Below, in pieces: positions 49,424-64,000 of a stretch of 64,000 nt of DNA (position 1 is the first letter of the stretch; each line of letters opens with the position of its first letter). The notes beneath the pieces are model-generated. The model saw only the letters and a program-made list of their open reading frames with translations. It had not been told where the DNA came from and made no database searches. Origin of the DNA: Cricetibacter osteomyelitidis (GTDB lineage: Bacteria > Pseudomonadota > Gammaproteobacteria > Enterobacterales > Pasteurellaceae). Made by a program: the position numbers and the translations under genes. The stretch is from NCBI RefSeq assembly GCF_004340985.1, contig NZ_SLYB01000003.1, positions 1 to 64,000 of the forward strand. The letters are read 5' to 3'.

Positions 49424-49555
49424 CTTGCTCACCTTGTACTTAACCCAATAAGGGTTGAATTTTAGCGAAAAACAACATAAAAATAAAGAAAATTACCCGT
49501 TTCAGTGATACACTACGCCTCAAATTTTATTTCTGATTTAACGTATTTTAACACT

Positions 49556-50635
49556 ATGCTAGTTTCCGATTTCCATTTTGATTTACCCAATGAACTCATC
49601 GCCTGTTATCCTAAAACCGAACGCAAATCCAGCCGTTTATTGCAGCTCAATGGTGAAAACGGGGAGATTTTCCACCGCACTTTTGCCGATGTAATAGATT
49701 TAATCAATGAAGGGGATTTGCTGATTTTCAATAACACCCGCGTGATTCCCGCCCGTATGTTTGGACGCAAAGCCAGTGGCGGCAAAGTTGAAGTGTTAGT
49801 TGAACGCATATTAAGCGAAAGCCGTTTTCTCGCTCACGTTCGTTCATCCAAAGCACCGAAAGCCGGAACGGCGCTGTATCTCGGTGAAGATAAACTAGGT
49901 GACGGCAACGGTGTAAAAGCAGTAATGATTGGTCGACAAGATGCGTTATTTGAATTAGAAATTGCCGAGAAATCCACCGCACTTTTAGACGTATTACAAC
50001 AAATCGGCCATATGCCACTGCCGCCATACATTGACCGCCCTGACGAAGAGGCGGATCAGGAACGTTATCAAACAGTATATAGCAAAGTGCCCGGTGCAGT
50101 GGCCGCACCGACTGCCGGTTTGCATTTTGATGATGAATTATTGGCTCAGCTTAAAACCAAAGGGGTAAATTTTGCTTTTGTAACGTTGCACGTCGGCGCG
50201 GGAACGTTCCAACCGGTGCGGGTAGAGAAAATTGAAGATCATCATATGCACGCAGAATATGTGGAAGTATCACAAGATGTGGCGGATGCCGTATTAGCCA
50301 CAAAAGCGGCGGGAAAACGTGTTATCGCGGTAGGAACAACATCAGTACGTTCTATTGAAAGTGCCGCGTTGGCATCAGAACAAAATCGCAGTGGGAATTT
50401 GCTTGATCCGTATTTTTCCGACACCTCTATTTTTATTTATCCCGGCAAAAAATTCCGTGTGATTGATTGCCTAATCACCAATTTCCACTTACCGGAAAGT
50501 ACGCTAATTATGCTGGTTTCCGCCTTTGCCGGTTATCAGCATACAATGAACGCCTATAAAAGTGCGGTAGAAAAGCGCTATCGTTTCTTCAGCTATGGCG
50601 ATGCGATGTTTATTACTAAAAACACGGCGCTTTAA
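49556..50635 (+). CDS. queA: S-adenosylmethionine:tRNA ribosyltransferase-isomerase
   Basis: Adds the epoxycyclopentane ring from SAM to preQ1-34 in queuosine synthesis, the step after Tgt. 359 residues from ATG 49556 ([11 protein letters not shown]), the family start; in-frame ATG 49505 would add 17 unconserved residues. Motifs: [70 protein letters not shown]. Ends at a bidirectional terminator facing the glycosyltransferase cluster. Confidence 0.98.
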
Positions 50636-50643
50636 ACAAAGTA

Positions 50644-50680
50644 AAAGTGCGGTAAATTTTCAAAAAGTTTACCGCACTTT
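50644..50680. terminator. bidirectional inverted-USS terminator at the cluster end
   Basis: AAAGTGCGGTAAA (50644-50656) pairs with TTTACCGCACTTT (50668-50680). It closes queA and the minus-strand glycosyltransferase array. Confidence 0.8.
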
Positions 50681-50690
50681 ATTGTTATTT

Positions 50691-51626
50691 CTATTTCTTA
50701 GAAACCTGAACCCTATAAGACTGGTTTCGCTTCCGCATTCCCACTAACTTTTGCTGCCATACTTCAACTGCTTTTTCATAAGTTAGATTATTTTGTGCAA
50801 ATTCCAAAGCATTTTGAGCAATTTCGCGGTAATAGGCTTCGCCGTTACTTTCTACAAAATCTATTTGTTGCAATAAATCTGAAAAATCATTTTTCACTGG
50901 AATAAAATGTTTATACGGATCTAAATCGAAATGGAAATAACTCTTCCATCTGCGTTCTTGAATAAACAATACACGTCCTGTTGCCAATAAAAACGGAATA
51001 CGTCCGCTATAACCGTTGCCTTCAATATCAATTAGATATTTGTAGTGGGTATGATCCGGCAGACTGATATAAGGTACAGATTTACCCAAGAACTTATTAC
51101 TTACCATAGTATCATGAGCTTCGATTTTATCCGGATGTGCAGCTGCGATTTTCATAAACATCGAGCGATTTTTATGCGTTTGCACATTACCGATCCAAAA
51201 CAGTTTATCGCTTTGCGGCGGCATTCTACTACGTCGAATAATTTCTGTCATCGTTTCGGTATAATTCGCGATCCCCGCCACCTTCCACGCATCAAATACA
51301 AAATCCGGCACACAAAACGGCAGATCTTCTTTATCTTCAACGCAATAATAAAAATGATACTCTTGTGGTTTTTCTTTAGGATAATCACCAAAGTGCACTA
51401 TGATATTCATATTCAAATGCACTTTATCAAACAGCCCCTGCAATGCATCCAAAATCATTTTCATACTGGAATCGCCACGCAATTCAATGCGATCGTTTTG
51501 TTTAAAGCTATCTACTCCGCCTTTACGAATGGAAACTTCCATTGAATAATCCGTACTTGGTTTAAGTATTCTTTCTGATACGGGTTGAACTTTATTTTTT
51601 GCTCTATTTATCGTAATCGTAACCAT
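50691..51626 (-). CDS. GT90 (CAP10/POGLUT-like) glycosyltransferase 1
   Basis: 311 residues, no signal peptide or TM segment. After an N-terminal tag (MVTITINRAK) and a 70-residue ferredoxin-like region (SIRKGGVDSFKQNDRIELRG), the GT90 core begins. Seen are PDFVFDAW near 108 (aligning with the POGLUT catalytic-Asp block), LFWIGNVQTHKNR (142-154), KYLIDIEGNGYSGRIPFLLA (196-215) and the C-terminal YKHFIPVKNDFSDLLQ (238-253). Eukaryotic relatives add glucose or xylose to proteins or capsule. The donor and acceptor here are unknown. AAGGA precedes the ATG. Last gene of the array. Confidence 0.8.
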   Translation of the reverse strand: MVTITINRAKNKVQPVSERILKPSTDYSMEVSIRKGGVDSFKQNDRIELRGDSSMKMILDALQGLFDKVHLNMNIIVHFGDYPKEKPQEYHFYYCVEDKEDLPFCVPDFVFDAWKVAGIANYTETMTEIIRRSRMPPQSDKLFWIGNVQTHKNRSMFMKIAAAHPDKIEAHDTMVSNKFLGKSVPYISLPDHTHYKYLIDIEGNGYSGRIPFLLATGRVLFIQERRWKSYFHFDLDPYKHFIPVKNDFSDLLQQIDFVESNGEAYYREIAQNALEFAQNNLTYEKAVEVWQQKLVGMRKRNQSYRVQVSKK

Positions 51627-51664
51627 TTCTAGTCCTTACATTAACTTAACCAACGATCTTTCTA

Positions 51665-52510
51665 TTAATGAGCTTGTAATAATTTAAACAGCAAGACATT
51701 AACCGCTTTTTCATAGGTCAATTTGTTTTGTACAAATTCTAAGGCATTGTGGGCAATTTTGCGGTAATATTCTTCACCTTGTGCTTCCATAAATTTGATT
51801 TGATGCAGTAGGTTGGATAAATCGTTTTTTACCGGAATAAAGTGTTTATAGGGTTCAAGCGAAAAGTGAAAATAGCTTTTCCATTTGCGTTCCTGAATAA
51901 ATAACACCCGTTGGCTTGCCAGCAAAAACGGAATCCTGCCGCTGTAACCGTTGCCTTCGATATCAATCAGATATTTATATTTGGTATGATCCGGCAGGCT
52001 GATATAGGAGGCCGGCTTGCCTAAAAATTTGTCACGTACCATGGTGTCATAGGCTTCGATTTTATCCGGATGGGCCTGGGCAATCTCCATCAGTTTGGCA
52101 CGATTACGATGGGTTTTCACATTACCTATCCAAAACAGTTTTTCACTTTCATAAGGCTGGTTGCCGCGGCTGATAATCTCATTGATGGTGGTTGTATAAT
52201 TCTCAATACCAGCCAGTTTCCACGAGTCAAACACAAAATCCGGTATGACGTGGTTGATGTCTTTTTCATCGGCAATGCAATAATAAAAATGATCTTTTTC
52301 AATCGCTTGTTGCGGATAATCACCGATATGAATCGTAATATCCCGATTTATACCAACCTGTCCCACTAACTTAAACAATGCATCCAGTAACATTTTAAGA
52401 CTGGAATCGCCCCGCATTTCGATTTGTGCATTTTGTTTTACACTTGCCACGCCGCCTTTGCGGATGCTGATCTCCATCGAATAATCAGGCTGTTTTTGTG
52501 CCTCTGTCAT
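51665..52510 (-). CDS. GT90 (CAP10/POGLUT-like) glycosyltransferase 2
   Basis: 281 residues, a paralogue of the next gene downstream with PDFVFDSWKLAGI, LFWIGNVKTHRNR, KYLIDIEGNGYSGRIPFLLA and YKHFIPVKNDLSNLL. It differs in having a shorter N-terminus (MTEAQKQPDYSMEISIRKGG) that lacks the MxITINxAK tag of its two sisters. It also ends earlier, without the WQQ-type tail. AAGGA six bases before ATG 52510. Gap of 73 bp to GT90-3. All catalytic blocks are intact, so it appears functional. Confidence 0.8.
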   Translation of the reverse strand: MTEAQKQPDYSMEISIRKGGVASVKQNAQIEMRGDSSLKMLLDALFKLVGQVGINRDITIHIGDYPQQAIEKDHFYYCIADEKDINHVIPDFVFDSWKLAGIENYTTTINEIISRGNQPYESEKLFWIGNVKTHRNRAKLMEIAQAHPDKIEAYDTMVRDKFLGKPASYISLPDHTKYKYLIDIEGNGYSGRIPFLLASQRVLFIQERKWKSYFHFSLEPYKHFIPVKNDLSNLLHQIKFMEAQGEEYYRKIAHNALEFVQNKLTYEKAVNVLLFKLLQAH

Positions 52511-52583
52511 GGTAAATCCTTATGCTGTTAATTATTTATAGTGTTTTCTGTTTTGTAAAATATCGGCAGAATCCGACCGCACT

Positions 52584-53501
52584 TTATTCTGCCAGCAATC
52601 GCTGCTGCCAGATCTCAACAGCTTTTTGATAAGTCAAGTGACTCTGCACAAATTCTAAAGCATTTTTTGTGATTTTTTGGTAAAAATCATCTCCCTGTTC
52701 ATCTACCCACACTAATTGTTTGAGCAAATCTGACAAATCATTTTTTACCGGAATAAAATGTTTATACGCTTCTAAATCAAAATGAAACCAACTTTTCCAT
52801 TTGCGTTCCTGAATAAACAATACACGCCCTGTTGCCAGTAAAAACGGAATTCTGCCGCTGTAACCCACACCTTCGATATCAATCAGATATTTGTACTTGC
52901 AATGGTCAGGTAAAGACACATAAGGTACATCCGCCCCGCCCTTTAAAGCTTTACCGATAAAGGTGCTGTATGCCTCGATTTTATCGGGATGGGCTTGGGC
53001 GATTTCCATCAATTTGGTTCGGTTACTATGGGTTTGCACATTGCCGATCCAAAAAAGTCTGTCACTTTCAAACGGCATTTTGCCGCGGGCGATGATCTCA
53101 TTAAGGGTATCGGTATAATTTTCCACACCGGCAACCGTCCACGAATCGGCAACAAAATCCGGCACGGCATGGGGTAAATCTTTACGGTCGGCAACGCAGT
53201 AATAGAAATGATTTTTCTCTAATACCGTATCGGGAAAATCTCCCACATGGATCACAATATCTTTGTTTATCGACCGTTTTTGAAATAAACCGATTAATGC
53301 GTCAATCACCATTTTCAAGCTGGATTCACCACGTACTGCCATATGTCCGACTTGCTCGACACGGGAAATCATACCGTCTTGAATACTGATTTTGATATGA
53401 GCGTCCTGTGGCACAATAGAAAATCTCGGTTTCGGTCTGTTCGGAGTTTCTGCCGGTTTCGTGGCCGGTCTGGCTTTTGCTTTATTTATCGTAATAATCA
53501 T
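52584..53501 (-). CDS. GT90 (CAP10/POGLUT-like) glycosyltransferase 3
   Basis: 305 residues. The N-terminal tag MIITINKAKARP and a proline-rich stretch (TKPAETPNRPKPR) lead into the shared ferredoxin-like region (KISIQDGMISRVEQVGHMAV) and GT90 core: PDFVADSWTVAGV, LFWIGNVQTHSNR, KYLIDIEGVGYSGRIPFLLA, YKHFIPVKNDLSDLL. Its middle loop (IGKALKGGADVPYVSLP) is two to three residues longer than in the others. It lies 21 bp after the GT41-A stop, so the two are probably co-transcribed. Confidence 0.8.
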   Translation of the reverse strand: MIITINKAKARPATKPAETPNRPKPRFSIVPQDAHIKISIQDGMISRVEQVGHMAVRGESSLKMVIDALIGLFQKRSINKDIVIHVGDFPDTVLEKNHFYYCVADRKDLPHAVPDFVADSWTVAGVENYTDTLNEIIARGKMPFESDRLFWIGNVQTHSNRTKLMEIAQAHPDKIEAYSTFIGKALKGGADVPYVSLPDHCKYKYLIDIEGVGYSGRIPFLLATGRVLFIQERKWKSWFHFDLEAYKHFIPVKNDLSDLLKQLVWVDEQGDDFYQKITKNALEFVQSHLTYQKAVEIWQQRLLAE

Positions 53502-53522
53502 ATTTACTCTAATTGTTCTGTG

Positions 53523-55364
53523 TTATCTGCACGCTTCCCGCCAAATTTCTCGTATCAGTTTGCACCAATCATCAGCAAAGGCGGCGGTATCAAATAACGG
53601 TGATTGGCGGACTGTTTCCCGCATAGTGTTACGCAGGGTTGCCAGTGCTTGCCGTTGCGAAGGTTTTGCCCAATAGAGCGCTTTGTTGATGTATTCGGCG
53701 TACGAACGGCAGACAAACTGCGGAAAACCCGCCGCGCTCAGTAATTGTTCGCCTTGGCGGGCAATCATACCCGGTTGGGTGTATGTCAGCGTTGGCACGC
53801 CCATCCAAAGAGCATCTACGGTGGTAGTACCGCCCGGAAACGGGAAGGTATCTAAAATCAAATCGATGTTGTTATGTGCCTGCAAATAACCGAGCCACGG
53901 GCTTCTGCTGCTGAATTGTACGTATTGCGGATTAAAACCAAGTGCGGTCAGTTTTTCGGCAAATTTCTGCTGTTTCTGTTTGCCGATGGCATGTCCTTTA
54001 AAATGCCAACGAGCTTGTGGCAGAGCTTGGGCGATTTCGACCCACAGCTGCAATACTTCATCGCTGATTTTCAACGGATTTTGAAAGCAGCCGAAGGTGA
54101 TATAGCCGTTTTTCAATGCCGGTAGTGTGCCAACTTCCACATCGGCAACCGGCGGTTGCATACAGAGGCGGGTATGCGGCAAGCGATAGACGGTTTCGCT
54201 GTATAAATGCTCTTCGCCCATCGGTACGCAATAAGGATCAGCGATAATACCGTTCATATCGGGCAAGCCGGTGGTGGCGAAATAGCCCAGCCATTCCAGC
54301 TGTATCGGTGCGGTTTGGGCAAAAAATACCCCCACGCGGTTTTTGCCGGTGTAACCGCTTAGATCAATCAGAATATCTACGCCGTCTGCACGGATTTGGT
54401 CGCGCACTTTAGCATCCGTCCAAGCATCGATCCGGTGCCAATGGGAAAATAGCGGACGTACTTGTTTGGCAAGATTGTCGTTCATATTGGTATTGAGATA
54501 AAGTGACCAATCAAATTGCTTCACTGCTTCAGATAATAACAATCCGCGTAAAAATCGCCCGACAGGGTGCATATCACGTAGATCGGCGGTAACTAAACCG
54601 ATACGTAGTTTTTTCTCGGCATTGGCAGGGTTTGTAACCTTAATCGGAGGTAAGACTATACGGCTTTCCTGCACACAACGGGAAGCATAGTGCATAGTAT
54701 CTCGGGCAATTTTTGCTGCATCGTAAGGAGAGTTGTAACATTGGGTCATCGCCCAATTTCCTAAGGAATCAATATAAGTCGGGTCATGGTTCAATACGCG
54801 TTTGTGCCAAAGTGCCGATTGCTGTGGCTGTTGCAACTTGCCATATACGGTAGCAATGTTGAACATTGTCGCCGTATCGTTAGGTTGTATAGTTAAGATT
54901 TTTTCATACACAGCTAAGGCTTGCGGATAATCCTGCTTATCCACATATACCGAACCTAATGTCAGCAATGCGGCTACGCCCTTGGGCTGGATGGCAAGCG
55001 AACGGTTAAGGTAATCTACCGCCTGCGGATACTGCTTTAAACGGTGGTAAACGGTGCCGATATTCGCCAATACTACAGCATTATTTTCATAATCGGGAAT
55101 ACGTTGGAATACCTCAATCGCATCCTGATAGCGGCTGCTACGCATCATCATTACAGCGGTGTTGTTTAACAATGCGTAATTTGTCGGATAATCAGCCAAG
55201 GCTTGTTGTGCTAATACGAGCGCATCTAATGCACCATTTTGCTTGTCCGTTTCCATAATGCGTTGAATATACTCGCCTGCAGTCGGTTTGTGTTCGGATG
55301 GTTGCACTGCTGCCGTTTGAACCGGCGGAATAGTCCGTTTGTTGCGGATGATTTGAACTGCCAT
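53523..55364 (-). CDS. TPR-GT41 (OGT/SPINDLY-like) glycosyltransferase A
   Basis: 613 residues, cytoplasmic. TPR repeats span about 30-215. The catalytic part has RIGLVTADLRDMHPVG with His266 (equivalent to the OGT base region), IDLSGYTGKNR (334-343), APIQLEWLGYFATTGLPDMN (352-371), FGCFQNPLKI (424-433, UDP-binding block) and DTFPFPGGTTT (505-515). OGT/SPY relatives transfer GlcNAc, fucose or glucose to Ser/Thr; GT41 HMW1C transfers hexose to Asn. N-terminal tag MAVQIIRNKR. Its ATG touches the GT41-B stop (TAAATG), with AGGAGG inside B. A USS (53940-53948) lies in codons for TALG. Confidence 0.85.
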   Translation of the reverse strand: MAVQIIRNKRTIPPVQTAAVQPSEHKPTAGEYIQRIMETDKQNGALDALVLAQQALADYPTNYALLNNTAVMMMRSSRYQDAIEVFQRIPDYENNAVVLANIGTVYHRLKQYPQAVDYLNRSLAIQPKGVAALLTLGSVYVDKQDYPQALAVYEKILTIQPNDTATMFNIATVYGKLQQPQQSALWHKRVLNHDPTYIDSLGNWAMTQCYNSPYDAAKIARDTMHYASRCVQESRIVLPPIKVTNPANAEKKLRIGLVTADLRDMHPVGRFLRGLLLSEAVKQFDWSLYLNTNMNDNLAKQVRPLFSHWHRIDAWTDAKVRDQIRADGVDILIDLSGYTGKNRVGVFFAQTAPIQLEWLGYFATTGLPDMNGIIADPYCVPMGEEHLYSETVYRLPHTRLCMQPPVADVEVGTLPALKNGYITFGCFQNPLKISDEVLQLWVEIAQALPQARWHFKGHAIGKQKQQKFAEKLTALGFNPQYVQFSSRSPWLGYLQAHNNIDLILDTFPFPGGTTTVDALWMGVPTLTYTQPGMIARQGEQLLSAAGFPQFVCRSYAEYINKALYWAKPSQRQALATLRNTMRETVRQSPLFDTAAFADDWCKLIREIWREACR

Positions 55365-57182
55365 TTATACCGCCTCCTGTTGGCAGGTTTGCTGCCAGAT
55401 TTCCCTGATTAAATTGCACCAATCTTGGGCAAATTTTTCGGTATCAAACAACGGCGATTGCAACACTTGTTCACGCAAAACGGCACGCAATGCTGCTAAA
55501 GATTTACGCTGTGTCGGATTCGCCCAATAAAGGGCTTTTTCACGATATTCCGGTAATGAACGGCAGACAAATTGCGGTAAGCCCGCCGCACTCAGTAATT
55601 GTTCTCCTTGTCGTGCCACCATACCGGGTTGGGTAAAGGTAATCGTCGGCACGCCCATCCACAGTGCTTCCGTAGTGGTTGTCCCTCCTGTGTAAGGGAA
55701 AGTATCTAAGATCAAATCGATGTCATTATAAGCTCGAAAATAATCGGCATGACTGCTACGCCCGCTGAACAATAAACGTTCCGGGTTAAATCCCATTTCC
55801 ACCAATTTTTGCTTAAATTCAAGCTGGCGGCTGGAATCAGGCATGTGTTCTTTACCTTTAAAATGCCAACGGGCATCGGGTAGCTGACGGGCTATGTCCA
55901 ACCATTGCTTTAATACCTCATCATTAAGCTTTTGCGGATTTTGGAAACAGCCAAAAGTGATATAGCCGTTTTGCAATGCAGGTAACGGAGCAACACTGAC
56001 ATCATAACGCGGCGGTCGCATACATAAACGGGTATGAGGCAAATACCAGACTTTTTCGCTGAAAAAACGAGCTTCTTCTTTCGGTACGCAATATTCATCG
56101 GCAATCACACCGTTCATATAAGGCAATCCTGTGGTGTTAAACCAGCCCAACCATTGTAATTGCACCGGCACGACCTGTGAGACAAACAGGCTGGCACGGT
56201 TGTTGCCGGTATAGCCGTTTAGATCGATCAAAATATCTACGCCGTCTGAACGGATGGTTTCCACCAACTGTGCATCCAACCAAATATCAATATCGTGCCA
56301 GTGGCTAAACAGCGGGCGGATACGGCGAGCCAGCCGGTCATTATGGCTTTCGGTCATATATGCCGACCATTCAAACTGCTTAACAGTTTCTGAAGTGAGC
56401 AAGCCGTCAATAAAATAGCCAACGGCGTGTTCGCGTAAATCGGAAGAAACCAAGCCGATATGCAGTTTTTTATGTGGATTTCGTGCCAAAACAGGCGGCA
56501 ATACTTGATGATAGGCGTTACTGAAGGCTTGTGCATACTGCTTGATGTCGTTGCTGATTTTTTCGGCATCATAAGGCTGCATATAATGCAGGGTAAATGC
56601 CCAGTTCGCCAACGCACTGTGATTTTTAGGCGCTAATTCCAAGGCACGGCGATACCAACGGTCTGATTGCTTTAAGTTTTTCAGCCTGCCATATACCAAA
56701 CCTAAATTATATGGCACTTGAGCATTATCTTCCTCAATACTCAAAAACTTCAAATAGGTGTCAACGGCATCTAAATTATAGCCTAAACGTGATTGTGCGA
56801 CCCCAAGATTGAGTAAGGCGGGCAAATGATTGGGTTTAATATCCAAGGCTTTTGTCAAATAATCTAACGCTTGTTTAAAGTTTTCCATCCGGATATAAGC
56901 TAAGCCTATATTGGTCAGTATTGAAATATTTTTTTCATATCCCGGAATACGTTCAAATAACTTAATCGCCTCTTCATAATATTTATTTTCGATCAGTAGA
57001 ATTGCAGTTTTCCGCAATAAGCCTTGGTGTTGCGGAAATTCCGTCAAATAGGCTTTGGCAGCCGCTAATGCCGCAGATAAACCTTTTTGCTTTTCAATTT
57101 GGTCAATTTTCTTTAAATAATCGTCCGCTATGGGATTTACCGGAGAGCAAGATGCTTTTTTTCGCTGAATAATAATCGCCAT
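55365..57182 (-). CDS. TPR-GT41 (OGT/SPINDLY-like) glycosyltransferase B
   Basis: 605 residues, the most divergent of the six. TPR region about 20-205 (five clear units). The catalytic His block is SSDLREHAVGYF (His252), one residue shorter between Asp and His than in its sisters (DLRDMH, DLKDCH, DMKDVH, DFKESH), which is the spacing seen in eukaryotic OGT. It also has LNGYTGNNRASLF (Asn for Ser) and WFNTTGLPYMNG. These differences point to a distinct donor or acceptor. N-terminal tag MAIIIQRKK. It overlaps the GT41-C stop by one base (TAATG), so translation is coupled. Confidence 0.85.
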   Translation of the reverse strand: MAIIIQRKKASCSPVNPIADDYLKKIDQIEKQKGLSAALAAAKAYLTEFPQHQGLLRKTAILLIENKYYEEAIKLFERIPGYEKNISILTNIGLAYIRMENFKQALDYLTKALDIKPNHLPALLNLGVAQSRLGYNLDAVDTYLKFLSIEEDNAQVPYNLGLVYGRLKNLKQSDRWYRRALELAPKNHSALANWAFTLHYMQPYDAEKISNDIKQYAQAFSNAYHQVLPPVLARNPHKKLHIGLVSSDLREHAVGYFIDGLLTSETVKQFEWSAYMTESHNDRLARRIRPLFSHWHDIDIWLDAQLVETIRSDGVDILIDLNGYTGNNRASLFVSQVVPVQLQWLGWFNTTGLPYMNGVIADEYCVPKEEARFFSEKVWYLPHTRLCMRPPRYDVSVAPLPALQNGYITFGCFQNPQKLNDEVLKQWLDIARQLPDARWHFKGKEHMPDSSRQLEFKQKLVEMGFNPERLLFSGRSSHADYFRAYNDIDLILDTFPYTGGTTTTEALWMGVPTITFTQPGMVARQGEQLLSAAGLPQFVCRSLPEYREKALYWANPTQRKSLAALRAVLREQVLQSPLFDTEKFAQDWCNLIREIWQQTCQQEAV

Positions 57183-59056
57183 TATTGCGCCCTTTTTTCA
57201 CAGGCATCACGCCATGTTTGACGGATCAAATCACTCCAATCTTGTGCAAAACGGGCGTTATCAAATAACGGAGAAGCCAGCACTTGTGCACGCAAGCCGT
57301 TATGCAGCTGTGCCAATATTTCACGTTGTGCCGGATTTGCCCAATATAGGGCTTTTTCTATGTATTGCTCACGAGTGTGACAAACAAATTCATTCAAACC
57401 CACCGCACACAACATCTGCTCACCTTGTCGGGCAATCATACCGGTTTGAGTCAAAGTAATGGTCGGCACTCCCATCCATAAGGATTCGGCGGTGGTCGTG
57501 CCGCCCGGATAAGGGAAAGTGTCTAAAATCAAATCTACCTGATTATGGGTTTCAAAATATTCAGCCCGCAGGCTTGGACCGGTAAAAATCAGATGGTTAG
57601 CGTTAAATCCCAAACCGCTTAATTTGTCTGCAAATCGGTGCTGTACCTCACTGCCCGGCTTGTGTTCACCATTTTTAAATAACCAACGGGCCTCCGGCAA
57701 TGCTTTTGCAATTTGTGCCCAAGTTTGTAGCACTTCATCATTGATTTTAGATGGATTTTGAAAACAACCAAAAGTTATATAACCGTTTGATAACGCCGGT
57801 AATGGTGCAACGGCAACCTGCTCTCTTGGCGGTTGCATGCATAAACGAGTATGCGGCAGACGATAAACTTTTTCGCTATATAAATGCTCTTCACCCACCG
57901 GTACACAATACGGATCGGCAATAATACCGTTCATATTCGGCAGACCGGTGGTGGCGAACCAACCCAGCCATTCTAATTGCAACGGTGCGGCTTGCACGGT
58001 AAAAATACCGAAACGGTTTTTCGCGGTATAACCGCTCAAATCAATCAACACATCAATGCCATCTGCACGAATCTGCTCGATGGCTTTGCTGTCTGTCCAA
58101 GGTTCAATATTGTGCCAGTTTTTAAACACCGGACGAACTTCGCGAGTCAGATTATCGTCAAAAGCACCGTTCAAATATGCCGACCAATCAAACTGTTTTG
58201 CCGCTTCAGACAGCAACAAACCCTGAATAAAGAAACCGACAGGATGGCAATCTTTTAAGTCTGCCGTCACTAAGCCGATGTGTAGTTTTTTCTCCGCCTC
58301 ACGTGCTGTTGGTACAGACAGGTTCAACTTATGTGCCTCGGCACAGGCTTTGGCATAATGCATAATTTCTTTAGCAATACGCTCCGGTTCATAAGGCGTG
58401 CGATAATTTTGAATAAATGCCCAATTCCCCAATGCACTGGTAAAGCTCGGATCGAGCTCTAAGGCCTTTAAATAATATTCAGAAGCCCGTGCCAGATCGG
58501 TAGGCTGATACATTGTCGCCAAATTAAAGGCCACCTGCCGTTGGCTTGGATTTTTCGGCAAAGATAATGCTCGTTCATAATAGGCTATCGCCTGTACTTC
58601 ATTGCCTAAGTCTTTTTGCACTAAGCCCATATTCAACACCGCATCCGGCTGATTGGGATCAAGTGCTAAGGCTTTGGCAAGATAATCGGCTGCTTTTTGA
58701 TATTCGCGAATCTGACGGCTGGCCAGCCCAAGATTGGTTAATGCACCGACATTTTTGTCTAAATCAGGAATACGCTCAAACATGGCAATAGCTTCTTGCT
58801 GGCGATGTACCTGCATCAGCAATACCGCGGTCAGATTCAGCAAATTGGCGTTAGTCGGAAAATCTTTTACTGCCTGCTCCGCTAATACTAAGGCGTCTTG
58901 TGCTCCGCGGGATTTCCAAAGATTGTGGACTTCAATATAACGTTTTTTATCCGCCTCGGTCTGAGGTTGCTGCACACCGGCTTTTTGTAAAAATTTAGTC
59001 ATTAAGGGGTTACTGATGGCTTTTTTCTGTTGCGGTACACGCGGTTTTTTACTCAT
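57182..59056 (-). CDS. TPR-GT41 (OGT/SPINDLY-like) glycosyltransferase C
   Basis: 624 residues. The N-terminus begins MSKKPRVPQQKKA and then carries TKFLQKAGVQQP, very like GT41-E but unlike the tagged A and B. TPR about 40-220, catalytic HPVGFF block (LVTADLKDCHPVG), IDLSGYTAKNRFGIF, WLGWFATTGLPNMNGIIADP, FGCFQNPSKI and DTFPYPGGTTTAESLWMG. The stop overlaps GT41-B; 79 bp separate it from the GT41-D stop. Confidence 0.85.
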   Translation of the reverse strand: MSKKPRVPQQKKAISNPLMTKFLQKAGVQQPQTEADKKRYIEVHNLWKSRGAQDALVLAEQAVKDFPTNANLLNLTAVLLMQVHRQQEAIAMFERIPDLDKNVGALTNLGLASRQIREYQKAADYLAKALALDPNQPDAVLNMGLVQKDLGNEVQAIAYYERALSLPKNPSQRQVAFNLATMYQPTDLARASEYYLKALELDPSFTSALGNWAFIQNYRTPYEPERIAKEIMHYAKACAEAHKLNLSVPTAREAEKKLHIGLVTADLKDCHPVGFFIQGLLLSEAAKQFDWSAYLNGAFDDNLTREVRPVFKNWHNIEPWTDSKAIEQIRADGIDVLIDLSGYTAKNRFGIFTVQAAPLQLEWLGWFATTGLPNMNGIIADPYCVPVGEEHLYSEKVYRLPHTRLCMQPPREQVAVAPLPALSNGYITFGCFQNPSKINDEVLQTWAQIAKALPEARWLFKNGEHKPGSEVQHRFADKLSGLGFNANHLIFTGPSLRAEYFETHNQVDLILDTFPYPGGTTTAESLWMGVPTITLTQTGMIARQGEQMLCAVGLNEFVCHTREQYIEKALYWANPAQREILAQLHNGLRAQVLASPLFDNARFAQDWSDLIRQTWRDACEKRAQ

Positions 59057-59135
59057 GTTGGTCTTCCGATTTTATTTTTGCAAGCGGTCTTTTCTTTTAA
59101 TATTTTGCAAAATCCGACCGCACTTTTCAAATGAT

Positions 59136-61202
59136 TTATCCGGCTTGGTGCTCTGCCTGCCGACATCTGTCTCGCCACATGGTGCGGATTAAATCACACC
59201 AATCGCGAGCAAAACGTTCGGTGTCAAACACCGGTGATTCAGCTACTTGCTTACGCATACCGGCACGTAAATCGGCCAACTCCCGCCAGTGTGCCGGATT
59301 CGCCCAATATAAGGTTTTTTCAATATATTCTTCACAGCTGCGACAGACAAACTGTGTTAATCCCGCTGCACTCATCAACTGCTCACCTTGGCGGGCAATC
59401 ATCCCCGGTAGCGGTAAAGTCAGTGTCGGCACCGCCATCCATAGTGCATCTGCCGTGGTAGTGCCGCCCGGATAAGGGAAAGTGTCTAAAATCAAATCAA
59501 TATTATGATGAGATTTCAGATAATTTTCGCGCGATTGGCGGGCAGTGAAAATAATATTATCTGCCTTAAAACCAAGTGCGGTCAGTTTTTCAACAAATTC
59601 ACGCTGTGAATTTTGATCAGACAGCCCACCGCTGGCACTTTGAAAACGCCAACGTGCCGTCGGCAAAGCTTCGGCGATTTTCCCCCAGGTTTGTAACACG
59701 CCTTCGCTGATTTTCAACGGATTCTGGAAACAGGCAAATGTCATATAACCATTTTGCAACGCAGGCAGTGGCGCAATATCCAGTTCATATTTCGGCGGCA
59801 TCATACACAGACGGGTATGCGGCATACGGTAAACGGTTTCGCTGTATAAATGCTCTTCGGATTCCGGCACACAATAGGGATCGGCAATAATCGCATTGAT
59901 ATTCGGTTGGCCGGTGGTCGCAAACCAGCCCAGCCATTCCACCTGCAACGGTGCATTTTGGCTGAAAAACACGCTGATGCGGTTACGCCCTGTATAGCCG
60001 CTCAGATCCACCAGCACATCCACATTATCTGCCTGCACCTGCTCACGCACTTTTTGATCCGCCCAAGAGATAATTTCATGCCAGTGATCGAATAGCGATT
60101 CCACCCGACTACGCAAGTCGTCAAAATCGTGATTATTGACATACAGCGACCAATCATACTGCTTTGCCGCCTTTGATACCAACAGACCTTCTAAAAACTG
60201 CCCCACCGGATGAGATTCTTTGAAATCACCGGTAACAATGCCGATACGCAGTTTTTTCTCCGGATTCAAGGCTTTTACCGGTAACACGTCTATTGACTCG
60301 GCTTGGGCGCATAATCTGCCGTATTTCATGGTATTACGTGCAATACCTTCCGGATCGTAAGGGGAAATATAACATTGAGTCATCGCCCAGTTACCCATAG
60401 CAACCAAGTTTGCAGGATCGATATCCAGTGACTGCAAATACCAGCGGGAAGCCTCTTGCAGATTTTTCACCCGCATATAGGCTTGCGCCAGATAAAAACG
60501 CGCATTAGTGTTTTCCGGTTCCAGTGCCAGTGCTTTATGGAAATTTTCAATTGCCCGCTCCACTATATTCACATTCAGTAACGCCTGACCATAAGCCAAC
60601 AGTGCAGTGATATTATGCGGGCGCAGGCACAAAGCTTTTTCCAGATAATCGATTTCCTGTTGAAATTGGTTCAAGCGGCGGTATGCCGTGGCGATATTGG
60701 ACAATACCACGGCATCTTGGTCATAATTGGGAATGCGGAAAAACATCTCCAATGCCTGTTGGAAAGTCTTACAGCGTAAATGCATCACCCCGCCGTAATT
60801 TAACAGCGAGATGTTATCCGGATATTCCTGCAAGGCTTTTTGAATTTCCACTAAGGCTTCAGACGGACCACGTCGTTGCAACACCGCCCCGATATGATCC
60901 AGATGGGTTTTCAAAGATATTTTAGCAATCTCAGTCTGTTGTGCTCGCACTTTACCGACACGGTCGGTGATGGCAGTTTCCAATTTCGACTTAGGAATTT
61001 CTGCCTGTTTAACCTCTACTTTAATTTGTGATTGCAAACGAGCAGATGACACCTGCACTTTGACATTACCGGGAGCTTGTACCGTAATCGGCACATTAAT
61101 ATCTGCTTTGTTTACAGGCTTAATCCCCCTTGTCTGTAATAATCCACTGACAGCAGACAGTGTGTTGATAGTCTTTTTAATCACACGGACTTTGTTGTTC
61201 AT
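59136..61202 (-). CDS. TPR-GT41 (OGT/SPINDLY-like) glycosyltransferase D
   Basis: 688 residues, the longest. It has an extra N-terminal region of about 90 residues (tag MNNKVRVIKK, then INVPITVQAPGNVKVQVSSA and several short basic-acidic stretches) before the TPR repeats (about 110-290). Catalytic blocks: IVTGDFKESHPVGQF, VDLSGYTGRNRISVF, WLGWFATTGQPNINAIIADP, FACFQNPLKI, DTFPYPGGTTTADALWMA. A USS (59574-59582) sits at the same codons as in GT41-A. The start is 10 bp from the GT41-E stop. Confidence 0.85.
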   Translation of the reverse strand: MNNKVRVIKKTINTLSAVSGLLQTRGIKPVNKADINVPITVQAPGNVKVQVSSARLQSQIKVEVKQAEIPKSKLETAITDRVGKVRAQQTEIAKISLKTHLDHIGAVLQRRGPSEALVEIQKALQEYPDNISLLNYGGVMHLRCKTFQQALEMFFRIPNYDQDAVVLSNIATAYRRLNQFQQEIDYLEKALCLRPHNITALLAYGQALLNVNIVERAIENFHKALALEPENTNARFYLAQAYMRVKNLQEASRWYLQSLDIDPANLVAMGNWAMTQCYISPYDPEGIARNTMKYGRLCAQAESIDVLPVKALNPEKKLRIGIVTGDFKESHPVGQFLEGLLVSKAAKQYDWSLYVNNHDFDDLRSRVESLFDHWHEIISWADQKVREQVQADNVDVLVDLSGYTGRNRISVFFSQNAPLQVEWLGWFATTGQPNINAIIADPYCVPESEEHLYSETVYRMPHTRLCMMPPKYELDIAPLPALQNGYMTFACFQNPLKISEGVLQTWGKIAEALPTARWRFQSASGGLSDQNSQREFVEKLTALGFKADNIIFTARQSRENYLKSHHNIDLILDTFPYPGGTTTADALWMAVPTLTLPLPGMIARQGEQLMSAAGLTQFVCRSCEEYIEKTLYWANPAHWRELADLRAGMRKQVAESPVFDTERFARDWCDLIRTMWRDRCRQAEHQAG

Positions 61203-61212
61203 TCTTATACCT

Positions 61213-63126
61213 TTATTTTTCCTGTGCTGCCTTTTTGCAAGCGTCCTGCCAAATCCGGCGAATTAAATTGCACCAATCTTCGCTGAATTTTACAGTATCA
61301 AATACAGGTGAGCTCAAAACCTGCTCACGCATTCCGACCTTTAATGCTGCCAGTTGCTCGCGGTTAGCCGGATTGCTCCAATATAACGCTTTTTCAACAT
61401 ACTCTTTGTGAGTTTGGCAGACAAATTGCGGATAACCCGCCGCACTCATCAGCTGTTCGCCTTGGCGGGCGATCATGCCCGGTAATGCCAGTGTTAAGGT
61501 TGGAACGCCCATCCATAGGGCATCGACAGTGGTTGTGCCGCCCGGGTAAGGGAAGGTGTCTAAAATCAAATCAATACCGTTGTGCGATTGAAAATATTTT
61601 TCACGTGCTTCGCTGTCGGTAAAAGTCAGATTATCAAGATTAAAACCGAGTGCCACCAGTTTTTCTTGGAATTTAATTTGTGCCGGTTTGCCCGGTGCAT
61701 TAAGCGTACTTTTAAAATACCAACGGGCATCCGGCAGGGCTTGGGCTATTTTCGCCCAAGTTTGCAAGGTATCTTCACTGATTTTCAGCGGATTTTGATA
61801 ACAGCCGAAAGTCATATAGCCGTTTTTTAATGCCGGTAATGTATCGATTTTCACCTGCTGATACGGCGGTTGCATACACAAACGGGTATGCGGCATACGG
61901 TAGATTTTCTCACTGTAAAGATGTTCTTCCGATTCCGGCACACAATAAGGGTCGGCAATCATCGCATTCATATGCGGCAGACCCGTAGTAGCAAACCAGC
62001 CTAGCCATTCAACCTGAACCGGTGCGGTTTGTGCCATAAAAATACCGGCACGGTTTTTCCCGGTGTAACCGCTTAAATCAATGAGAATATCCACTCCGTC
62101 TGAACGGATCTGCTCAATAGCTCGGGCATCCGTCCATACGCCGATATTGTGCCAATGTTTAAACAAGGGACGGACTTTTTGGGTCAGGCGGTCGTCATAA
62201 ACACCGTTCATATAAGCAGACCAGTCAAATTGTTTGGCAGATTCATCACTTAGTAAACCTTCTAAGAAATACCCCACCGGATGCACATCTTTCATATCTG
62301 CGGTCACTAAGCCGATATGCAGCTTTTTCTTCGGATTTTCGGCTTTCACGGCAGGCAGTCGGATATTACGCCCTTTTACTGCTTTTTCGGCATAAGCAAT
62401 GGTTTCACGGGTAATGCGTTTGGCATCGTAAGGCACCATATAATTCTGAATCAGTGCCCAGTTGCCTAATGCCGACAGGTGGGTCGGATTCAACTCCAAG
62501 GTCTTACGATAGCAGGCATTGGAAGCGGGTAAATCCTGTAATCTGCCGTAAGTTGTCCCTAAATTGTAGGAAATTTCTGCATTTTCCGGATCTTTATCCA
62601 AAATCTGGCGGTAATATTTCACTGCATCCGAATAGTTACCTAAATCCGTCTGCACCAAGCCCATATTTTGTAAGGTCGAAGCCCTATTCGGATCAATCGC
62701 TAAAACTTTATGGAAAATCTCAGCCGCTTTTTTGTATTGCTGCATCTGGCGGTAAGTGACCCCGAGATTGGTCAATACGCCGACATTTTTATCATAATCG
62801 GGAATACGTTCAAATGTTGTCACCGCTTCTTGAAAACGATTGTTTTTCATCAGTAAAATTGCCGTACAGTTTAGCAATGCCACCGATTGAGGATATTGTG
62901 CCAGTGCCTTTTCCGATGCGGTCAAAGCGTCCTGTGCACCGCGTGCTTTCTCAATCTGTGCAATTTCCGCCGTCAGCTTTTGTGTAGCTTGGGCGATGTT
63001 TTGAGTAGCTTGTTGCGGTTGTGTGTTCTTTACATCCACACCTGCTTTTTTCAGAAAACCGCTCATAAAAGAGGGGGTCTTTACCGCGCGTTTGGGTTGA
63101 ACGATTCTTGTTGGTTTCTTACTCAT
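61213..63126 (-). CDS. TPR-GT41 (OGT/SPINDLY-like) glycosyltransferase E
   Basis: 637 residues. N-terminus MSKKPTRIVQPKRA then FLKKAGVDV, like GT41-C, followed by a Gln-rich linker (TQPQQATQNIAQATQKL). TPR about 60-245 with full consensus units (NLGTTYGRLQDL). Catalytic blocks LVTADMKDVHPVGYF, IDLSGYTGKNRAGIF, WLGWFATTGLPHMNAMIADP, FGCYQNPLKI, DTFPYPGGTTTVDALWMG. It lies 27 bp downstream of GT41-F, in the same transcript. Confidence 0.85.
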   Translation of the reverse strand: MSKKPTRIVQPKRAVKTPSFMSGFLKKAGVDVKNTQPQQATQNIAQATQKLTAEIAQIEKARGAQDALTASEKALAQYPQSVALLNCTAILLMKNNRFQEAVTTFERIPDYDKNVGVLTNLGVTYRQMQQYKKAAEIFHKVLAIDPNRASTLQNMGLVQTDLGNYSDAVKYYRQILDKDPENAEISYNLGTTYGRLQDLPASNACYRKTLELNPTHLSALGNWALIQNYMVPYDAKRITRETIAYAEKAVKGRNIRLPAVKAENPKKKLHIGLVTADMKDVHPVGYFLEGLLSDESAKQFDWSAYMNGVYDDRLTQKVRPLFKHWHNIGVWTDARAIEQIRSDGVDILIDLSGYTGKNRAGIFMAQTAPVQVEWLGWFATTGLPHMNAMIADPYCVPESEEHLYSEKIYRMPHTRLCMQPPYQQVKIDTLPALKNGYMTFGCYQNPLKISEDTLQTWAKIAQALPDARWYFKSTLNAPGKPAQIKFQEKLVALGFNLDNLTFTDSEAREKYFQSHNGIDLILDTFPYPGGTTTVDALWMGVPTLTLALPGMIARQGEQLMSAAGYPQFVCQTHKEYVEKALYWSNPANREQLAALKVGMREQVLSSPVFDTVKFSEDWCNLIRRIWQDACKKAAQEK

Positions 63127-63153
63127 AAAATTATCCTATTTTTAACCGCACTT

Positions 63154-64000
63154 TTACGCTTTGTTTTGCTCAACGGCATCTTGCCAAATTTGCTGAATCA
63201 AAGTACACCAGTCTTTACTGAATTGTGCCGTATTAAATAACGGTGAATTTCGTGCTTTCTCACGCATGGTTAAACGCATTTGATTTAATAAATTACGGTT
63301 AGCCGAATCCGCCCAATACAATGCTTTTTCCACATATTGCTGAGGCGAATAAGTCACCAAATCAGCGAAACCGGCAGCGGATAACACTTGTTGCCCCTGA
63401 CGGGAAAGCATACTCGGCAATGCCAGCGTAATAGTCGGTACGCCCATCCATAAAGCATCTACGGTAGTTGTTCCGCCCGGATAAGGGAAGGTATCTAAAA
63501 TCAAATCAATCTTGTTGTAAGTGGGAAAATATTCTGAGAAATGGGTTGTGCCGAAAAATTCGACTTGATTCATCGGAAAACCTAACTTTGTTAATTTCTG
63601 TTTGAAATCCGGCAAGTCTTCACTGTCGGTACTCAAACGTGCAGCTTGAAAACGCCAATGTGCACTTGGCACTTTTTTTGCTACTTCCGCCCACAGTTTC
63701 AAGACATCATCATTGACCTTGGTCAGATTTTGAAAACAACCGAAAGTGATATAACCCTTTTCTAAGGCCGGACTCAGATTGACTTGTGCCTCAGTACCGG
63801 GATAGTTCATACACAAACGCGTGTGCGGCAGGCGATAGACTTTCTCGCTGTACCATTTTTCCTCTTCCGACGGCACGCAATACGGATCGGCAATAATTGC
63901 TTGCATGGTCGGCAAGCCTGAAGTCGCAAAATATCCAAGCCAAGTTACTTGCACCGGTGCTGATTGGGCGGCAAAAATAGCTAAACGATGTCCGGCAGTT
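63154..64000 (-). CDS. TPR-GT41 glycosyltransferase F, partial (5' end beyond window)
   Basis: 282 C-terminal codons of a sixth paralogue; the frame is open to position 64000 and aligns with its sisters from TAGHRLAIFAAQSAPVQV onward. It contains WLGYFATSGLPTMQAIIADP, FGCFQNLTKV, DTFPYPGGTTTVDALWMG and ends QIWQDAVEQNKA. The upstream TPR part and true start are outside the window; an internal GTG at 63954 is not the start. A distinctive insert (NYPGTEAQVNLSPALEKG) replaces the usual PP-rich loop. Confidence 0.85.
   Translation of the reverse strand, partial: TAGHRLAIFAAQSAPVQVTWLGYFATSGLPTMQAIIADPYCVPSEEEKWYSEKVYRLPHTRLCMNYPGTEAQVNLSPALEKGYITFGCFQNLTKVNDDVLKLWAEVAKKVPSAHWRFQAARLSTDSEDLPDFKQKLTKLGFPMNQVEFFGTTHFSEYFPTYNKIDLILDTFPYPGGTTTVDALWMGVPTITLALPSMLSRQGQQVLSAAGFADLVTYSPQQYVEKALYWADSANRNLLNQMRLTMREKARNSPLFNTAQFSKDWCTLIQQIWQDAVEQNKA

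Follow-up and report, generated by a model that had tools for sequence, protein, structure and literature searches.

We propose, with moderate confidence, that a nine-gene array in the Pasteurellaceae bacterium Cricetibacter osteomyelitidis specifies a set of soluble enzymes for the O-glycosylation of proteins in the cytoplasm, in which six GT41 enzymes would act on several acceptors and GT90 enzymes would extend or cap the product. The array is real, rare and intact, and its enzymes probably attach sugars to some proteins of the same cell. It consists of nine consecutive minus-strand open reading frames (ORFs), none with internal stops (contig C3, 50691–65271), that encode six TPR-GT41 proteins and three GT90 proteins. 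Direct support comes from the genes themselves, their family assignments, the intact catalytic residues, one predicted fold, the divergence of the TPR regions and phylogeny; the activity, the donor, the acceptors, the order of action and the cooperation between GT41 and GT90 enzymes are what we infer.

The window, by which we mean the whole 64,000-nucleotide stretch of DNA analysed, covers positions 1–64,000 of contig C3 (NZ_SLYB01000003.1); window and C3 coordinates are shared. All nine genes lie on the minus strand, and in the order of transcription they are GT41_1 (63154–64000 in the window, 63154–65271 in full; 705 aa), GT41_2 (61213–63126; 637 aa), GT41_3 (59136–61202; 688 aa), GT41_4 (57182–59056; 624 aa), GT41_5 (55365–57182; 605 aa), GT41_6 (53523–55364; 613 aa), GT90_1 (52584–53501; 305 aa), GT90_2 (51665–52510; 281 aa) and GT90_3 (50691–51626; 311 aa). 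The initial annotation had described nine consecutive genes of these two families, three GT90-like and at least six GT41-like, and this description holds at the same positions, with PF05686 and PF13844 matches above the curated cut-offs. One GT41 gene is incomplete in the window, however: GT41_1, the sixth GT41 and ninth gene of the array counted from queA, extends 1.3 kb beyond the edge to C3 65271, and its full 705-aa product aligns throughout. Gene spacing is operon-like. Intergenic distances (38, 73, 21, 0, −1, 79, 10 and 27 bp) agree with the gaps of at most about 80 bp first reported, whereas the ‘several’ stop/start overlaps reduce to a single 1-base overlap between GT41_5 and GT41_4, plus one exact abutment. 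No signal peptide was found in any of the nine proteins, as had been suggested; the most hydrophobic 15 residues near their N-termini average at most 0.99, compared with 1.97 for a secreted control, in agreement with a cytoplasmic location. A search for phase-variation tracts in the array gave no convincing simple repeats, only two short 10-bp pairs.

The array is flanked by queA (plus strand, 49505–50635) and rsmI (C3 65475–66314). It lies inside a 164-kb contig, with ordinary chromosomal genes on both sides, and the listed completeness and contamination of the genome are 100% and 0.17%. Between queA and GT90_3, after the end of queA, an inverted pair of Haemophilus-type uptake signal sequences (AAGTGCGGT; 50644–50680) forms a 17-bp stem. 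No other terminator-like stem in the stretch is as long, and the pair may act as a terminator. Uptake signals are frequent in the window as a whole (53 observed versus 0.5 expected).

All six GT41 proteins match PF13844 with E-values of 2e-32 to 4e-41 and scores of 113–141 bits, compared with a curated Pfam cut-off of 25. Individual E-values are 7e-33 for the in-window part of GT41_1, 2.5e-36 for GT41_2, 1.6e-32 for GT41_3, 8e-38 for GT41_4, 4e-41 for GT41_5 and 5e-37 for GT41_6, and Pfam TPR families were matched in the five that are complete within the window. The initial annotation was correct in calling them paralogues, but its comparison with HMW1C is not borne out as worded: they are OGT/SPINDLY-type enzymes, and the HMW1C/NGT model NF049992 gives them just 22–35 bits against its cut-off of 1000. 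Membership of the HMW1C/NGT group is thus ruled out. The same genome carries a separate, classical HMW1C/NGT gene (C1:14242–16116; 1070 bits), which has unrelated genes on either side and no adhesin gene next to it. HMW1C/NGT proteins share with the array the general character of cytoplasmic GT41 enzymes that modify proteins (PMC5303269, PMC10507012). A profile of the array GT41s scores 253 bits with TtOGT, 235 with SPINDLY, 153 with OGT and 34–40 with NGT.

Structural modelling, proposed at the outset, succeeded for the GT41 side and failed for the GT90 side. The AF2 model of GT41_4 (pLDDT 82) matches SPINDLY best by VIA (Z 43.4, 579 residues, rmsd 4.0; Foldseek was also run), followed by the T. 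terrenum OGT (TtOGT; Z 41.9), the X. campestris OGT (XcOGT; Z 36.7) and then OGT and NGT at about 30. The likeness to SPINDLY, the protein O-fucosyltransferase of plants and protists, covers the TPR and GT41 layout as well as the fold and the catalytic His, Lys and Thr residues. The array proteins differ in that they are bacterial, have fewer TPRs and occur as six tandem paralogues beside GT90s, with 26–27% identity to SPINDLY over the aligned length. Both TtOGT (30% identity) and XcOGT (22–23% identity) are likewise single-chain TPR-GT41 enzymes, but they are known as single enzymes rather than arrays, and we found no GT90 partners for them in the literature consulted. On bacterial proteins, these two close relatives were inactive or nearly so (PMC9715652); the array enzymes could therefore be hard to assay or have unexpected targets.

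When the active sites were checked for loss of function, the His and Lys equivalent to SPINDLY H495 and K665 and the threonines of the GGTTT segment (SPINDLY T748 region) proved to be kept in all six GT41s. Mutation of either K665 or H495 abolishes SPINDLY activity (PMC9715652). The position of SPINDLY Y744 is a Tyr in GT41_1 to GT41_5 and a Phe in GT41_6; none has the OGT-type Cys. In SPINDLY, Y744 is considered to keep UDP-GlcNAc out; the residue at this position is Cys in human OGT, and ApHMW1C, whose donor is UDP-glucose, also has Phe there (PMC9715652). Since the donor-selecting position is Tyr or Phe and never the OGT Cys, UDP-GlcNAc is an unlikely donor, and the array GT41s are predicted to use another. 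A Tyr is nonetheless no proof of GDP-fucose use, as both XcOGT and TtOGT carry one as well.

Each GT41 TPR region contains an asparagine ladder, with an Asn every 33–36 residues, once per TPR (residues 74, 108, 142, 178 and 211 in GT41_4). The ladder and the catalytic residues are intact in GT41_2, while gaps or substitutions occur in the ladders of GT41_3, GT41_5 and GT41_6; in GT41_3, ladder asparagines are replaced by Ala and Tyr in two TPRs. Pairwise identity among the six proteins averages 35% across the TPR region, compared with 59% across the GT domain. Such divergence fits differing acceptors with conserved chemistry, although relaxed constraint on the TPRs would look alike. Because catalysis is common to the paralogues and their TPRs differ, different GT41s probably serve different acceptors or sites. 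Division of recognition and catalysis between two parts of one chain has a parallel in Caulobacter FlmG, where an N-terminal TPR region picks flagellins and a C-terminal GT-B domain glycosylates them in the cytoplasm (PMC7591256). FlmG differs in its acceptor, flagellin, in its donor, pseudaminic acid, and in being a single gene.

The three GT90 proteins are CAP10/POGLUT-like and match PF05686 at 96–106 bits (curated Pfam cut-off 24), with E-values of 4e-27 for GT90_1, 3e-30 for GT90_2 and 9e-30 for GT90_3. Their profile matches POGLUT2 and POGLUT1. The GD[YF]P motif (GDFP in GT90_1, GDYP in GT90_2 and GT90_3) aligns with GDWP of POGLUT2, as does a Y-K-Y-L...D/EG...R region; the catalytic Asp of POGLUT1 lies in the corresponding motif. 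The structure model reached a pLDDT of 42, too poor to use, so the proposed function of the GT90s is drawn from sequence. Compared with POGLUT1/2, Rumi, fungal Cap10 and the X. pisi apiosyltransferase, with which they share PF05686, the array GT90s are short and cytoplasmic and lack an ER signal. An N-terminal tag shared by GT90_3 with GT41_5 and GT41_6, and more weakly by GT90_1, is not claimed as a real feature, as the peptides are too short and too many pairs were compared.

The targets of the array might instead be lipooligosaccharide, the capsule or some other glycolipid, a reading that we regard as improbable. Characterised GT41 enzymes act on proteins, and lipooligosaccharide, capsule and sugar-nucleotide genes are absent from the array. 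TPR grooves with an Asn ladder, moreover, bind the peptide backbone in OGT and SPINDLY (PMC9715652). A glycolipid target would nevertheless suit the GT90 family, which includes fungal capsule-polysaccharide xylosyltransferases and, in bacteria, acts outside protein glycosylation in the X. pisi apiosyltransferase (PMC6193724), and it would suit the weak single-gene GT90 relatives present in four other Pasteurellaceae genomes.

The GT41 type of the array is rare. In a PF13844 search with 61 relatives, the Cricetibacter genome was the only one within the Pasteurellaceae to have it. Likewise, a six-protein profile run on 140 Pasteurellaceae genomes (43 genera) found full-length matches here and in none of the 139 others; the remaining listed matches scored weakly and fell mostly on its TPR portion. 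A few Neisseriaceae have the nearest relatives, as lone genes: six of 83 genomes have the GT41 domain, with one gene each except for two in Alysiella crassa. When one genome per bacterial species was scanned for two peptide patterns, matches came only from Neisseria weixii, N. iguanae, A. crassa and a Methylococcaceae bin. Apart from a weak match in A. crassa, no GT90 of the array kind was found in the six GT41-bearing Neisseriaceae genomes, which counts against the proposed system. Stronger GT90 relatives (E = 1e-39 to 3e-42) occur in two other proteobacterial genomes with no GT41 alongside.

A maximum likelihood tree of the GT domain places the six array GT41s and the Neisseriaceae proteins in one supported group, beside a Methylococcaceae protein. 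Within it, GT41_1 clusters with four Neisseria-type proteins (support 100/99) and is the counterpart of the main Neisseria type, and GT41_2 to GT41_6 form their own clade (support 100/100). The simplest account would be transfer between Neisseriaceae and this lineage, in either direction, followed by tandem duplication of the GT41s. GC content is close (44% in the array, 41% in its neighbourhood). The home uptake signal occurs five times in the 14.6-kb array versus 79 times in 85 kb of surroundings, a thinning that fits import without proving it. The neisserial DNA uptake core CCGTCTGAA has three sites in the array, where 0.21 are expected, and none in the rest of the window; as an argument for neisserial origin it is weak, given that two of the three sites fall in the same conserved codons (IRSDG). 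A phage origin was also rejected: no phage record has a GT41 domain, with one match covering TPRs only. No viral contig encodes this GT41, two carry distant GT90s, and PADLOC and PHROGs searches of the array returned TPR matches only.

The distribution also bears on a regulatory reading, which we consider very doubtful, whereby the array performs OGT/SPINDLY-like modification of cytoplasmic proteins and its multiplicity reflects chance duplication with little division of labour. The closest structural relatives are indeed intracellular regulators, and the single GT41 genes of Neisseriaceae have no consistent adhesin neighbour. Six diverged yet intact paralogues beside three GT90s would, however, point to retained separate roles.

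A search for the acceptor began with the neighbourhood of the array. An adhesin or autotransporter gene had been expected to the right; extending the contig to C3:100000 revealed instead rsmI, lpoA and other housekeeping genes, and between queA and that point there is no adhesin gene; no neighbour of the array resembles an acceptor. Over this range, the array lacks the arrangement of a serine-rich-repeat adhesin locus, in which glycosyltransferase genes adjoin the adhesin gene. Distant GT41 relatives in Azospirillum have type I secretion genes and RTX-type calcium-binding proteins nearby, and those in Methylosinus have filamentous haemagglutinins; the remaining ones viewed showed no clear acceptor link. 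These neighbourhoods lend partial support to the initial proposal of a multi-sugar glycan, which would be carried on large surface proteins. GDP-fucose synthesis genes are also close to the Azospirillum relatives, which hints at what bacterial TPR-GT41 enzymes may use as donor. Elsewhere in the Cricetibacter genome are three FhaB/CdiA-like proteins, of 2286 aa on C28, 2762 aa on C13 and at least 2625 aa on C33; those on C28 and C13 have nearly identical N-termini.

An ESPR search of the genome identified six ESPR-bearing surface proteins. One of them, a trimeric autotransporter of 899 aa that also has a YadA anchor (C26:1533–4232), is richer in Ser+Thr than the other five, with a 150-aa stretch that is 54% Ser+Thr and 46% Ser. 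These properties would suit an array that glycosylates this one dedicated adhesin through initiation and several extenders, much as the serine-rich-repeat adhesin pathway of streptococci does but in a Gram-negative cell, a reading that we judge unlikely. The array and the autotransporter gene lie on different contigs, the GT41-bearing Neisseriaceae checked have no comparably Ser-rich autotransporter, and A. crassa, with its two GT41s, gives no YadA anchor match. In 20 Neisseriaceae autotransporters, S+T was at most 0.33. Co-occurrence of GT41s and trimeric autotransporters in Neisseriaceae was uninformative, with autotransporters in 18 of 20 genomes and one GT41-positive genome without.

The C26 gene, for a Ser/Ala-repeat trimeric autotransporter, is, moreover, directly followed by a DUF2827 (PF10933) gene, and the pair spans C26:287–4232. 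DUF2827 is present in 38 of the 140 Pasteurellaceae genomes, and a Ser-rich autotransporter (S+T ≥0.40 in a 150-aa window) adjoins it at 16 of 20 fetched Pasteurellaceae loci; at two more, the pair is cut by a contig end. Such pairs occur in many genera without the array. Of four Burkholderia plasmids viewed, three have DUF2827 beside YadA-like genes; on the fourth, its neighbour is a 2573-aa protein rich in Ser and Thr. PDB sequences include no relative of DUF2827, and a full-text literature search returned one unrelated paper. DUF2827 looks like an undescribed dedicated modifier of Ser-rich adhesins. Because the C26 adhesin thus has its own likely modifying enzyme, it is a less convincing target for the array.

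We return to cytoplasmic O-glycosylation of several acceptors. In each GT41, the Asn ladder of the TPR groove would grip a part of the acceptor that bears Ser/Thr and is unfolded or flexible, and the enzyme would transfer one sugar onto it from a nucleotide donor. This donor is probably not UDP-GlcNAc and may carry a smaller or C2-unacetylated sugar (e.g., GDP-fucose or UDP-hexose). The GT90 enzymes may then add a second sugar or a cap. A bolder version is a combinatorial, non-GlcNAc cytoplasmic code written by six SPINDLY-like initiators with differing TPR grooves and three POGLUT-like extenders, an idea that we offer as tentative and on balance doubtful. Such a multi-paralogue O-glycosylation code, if true, has no counterpart that we found in bacteria in the literature consulted. 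The OGT/SPINDLY field has yet to settle how TPR-GT41 enzymes select their acceptors. Here, a natural set of six paralogues combines conserved catalysis with diverged TPRs, and the genes can probably be removed singly, which would make acceptor choice testable. The array would reveal a protein-glycosylation route in the Pasteurellaceae distinct from NGT/HMW1C.
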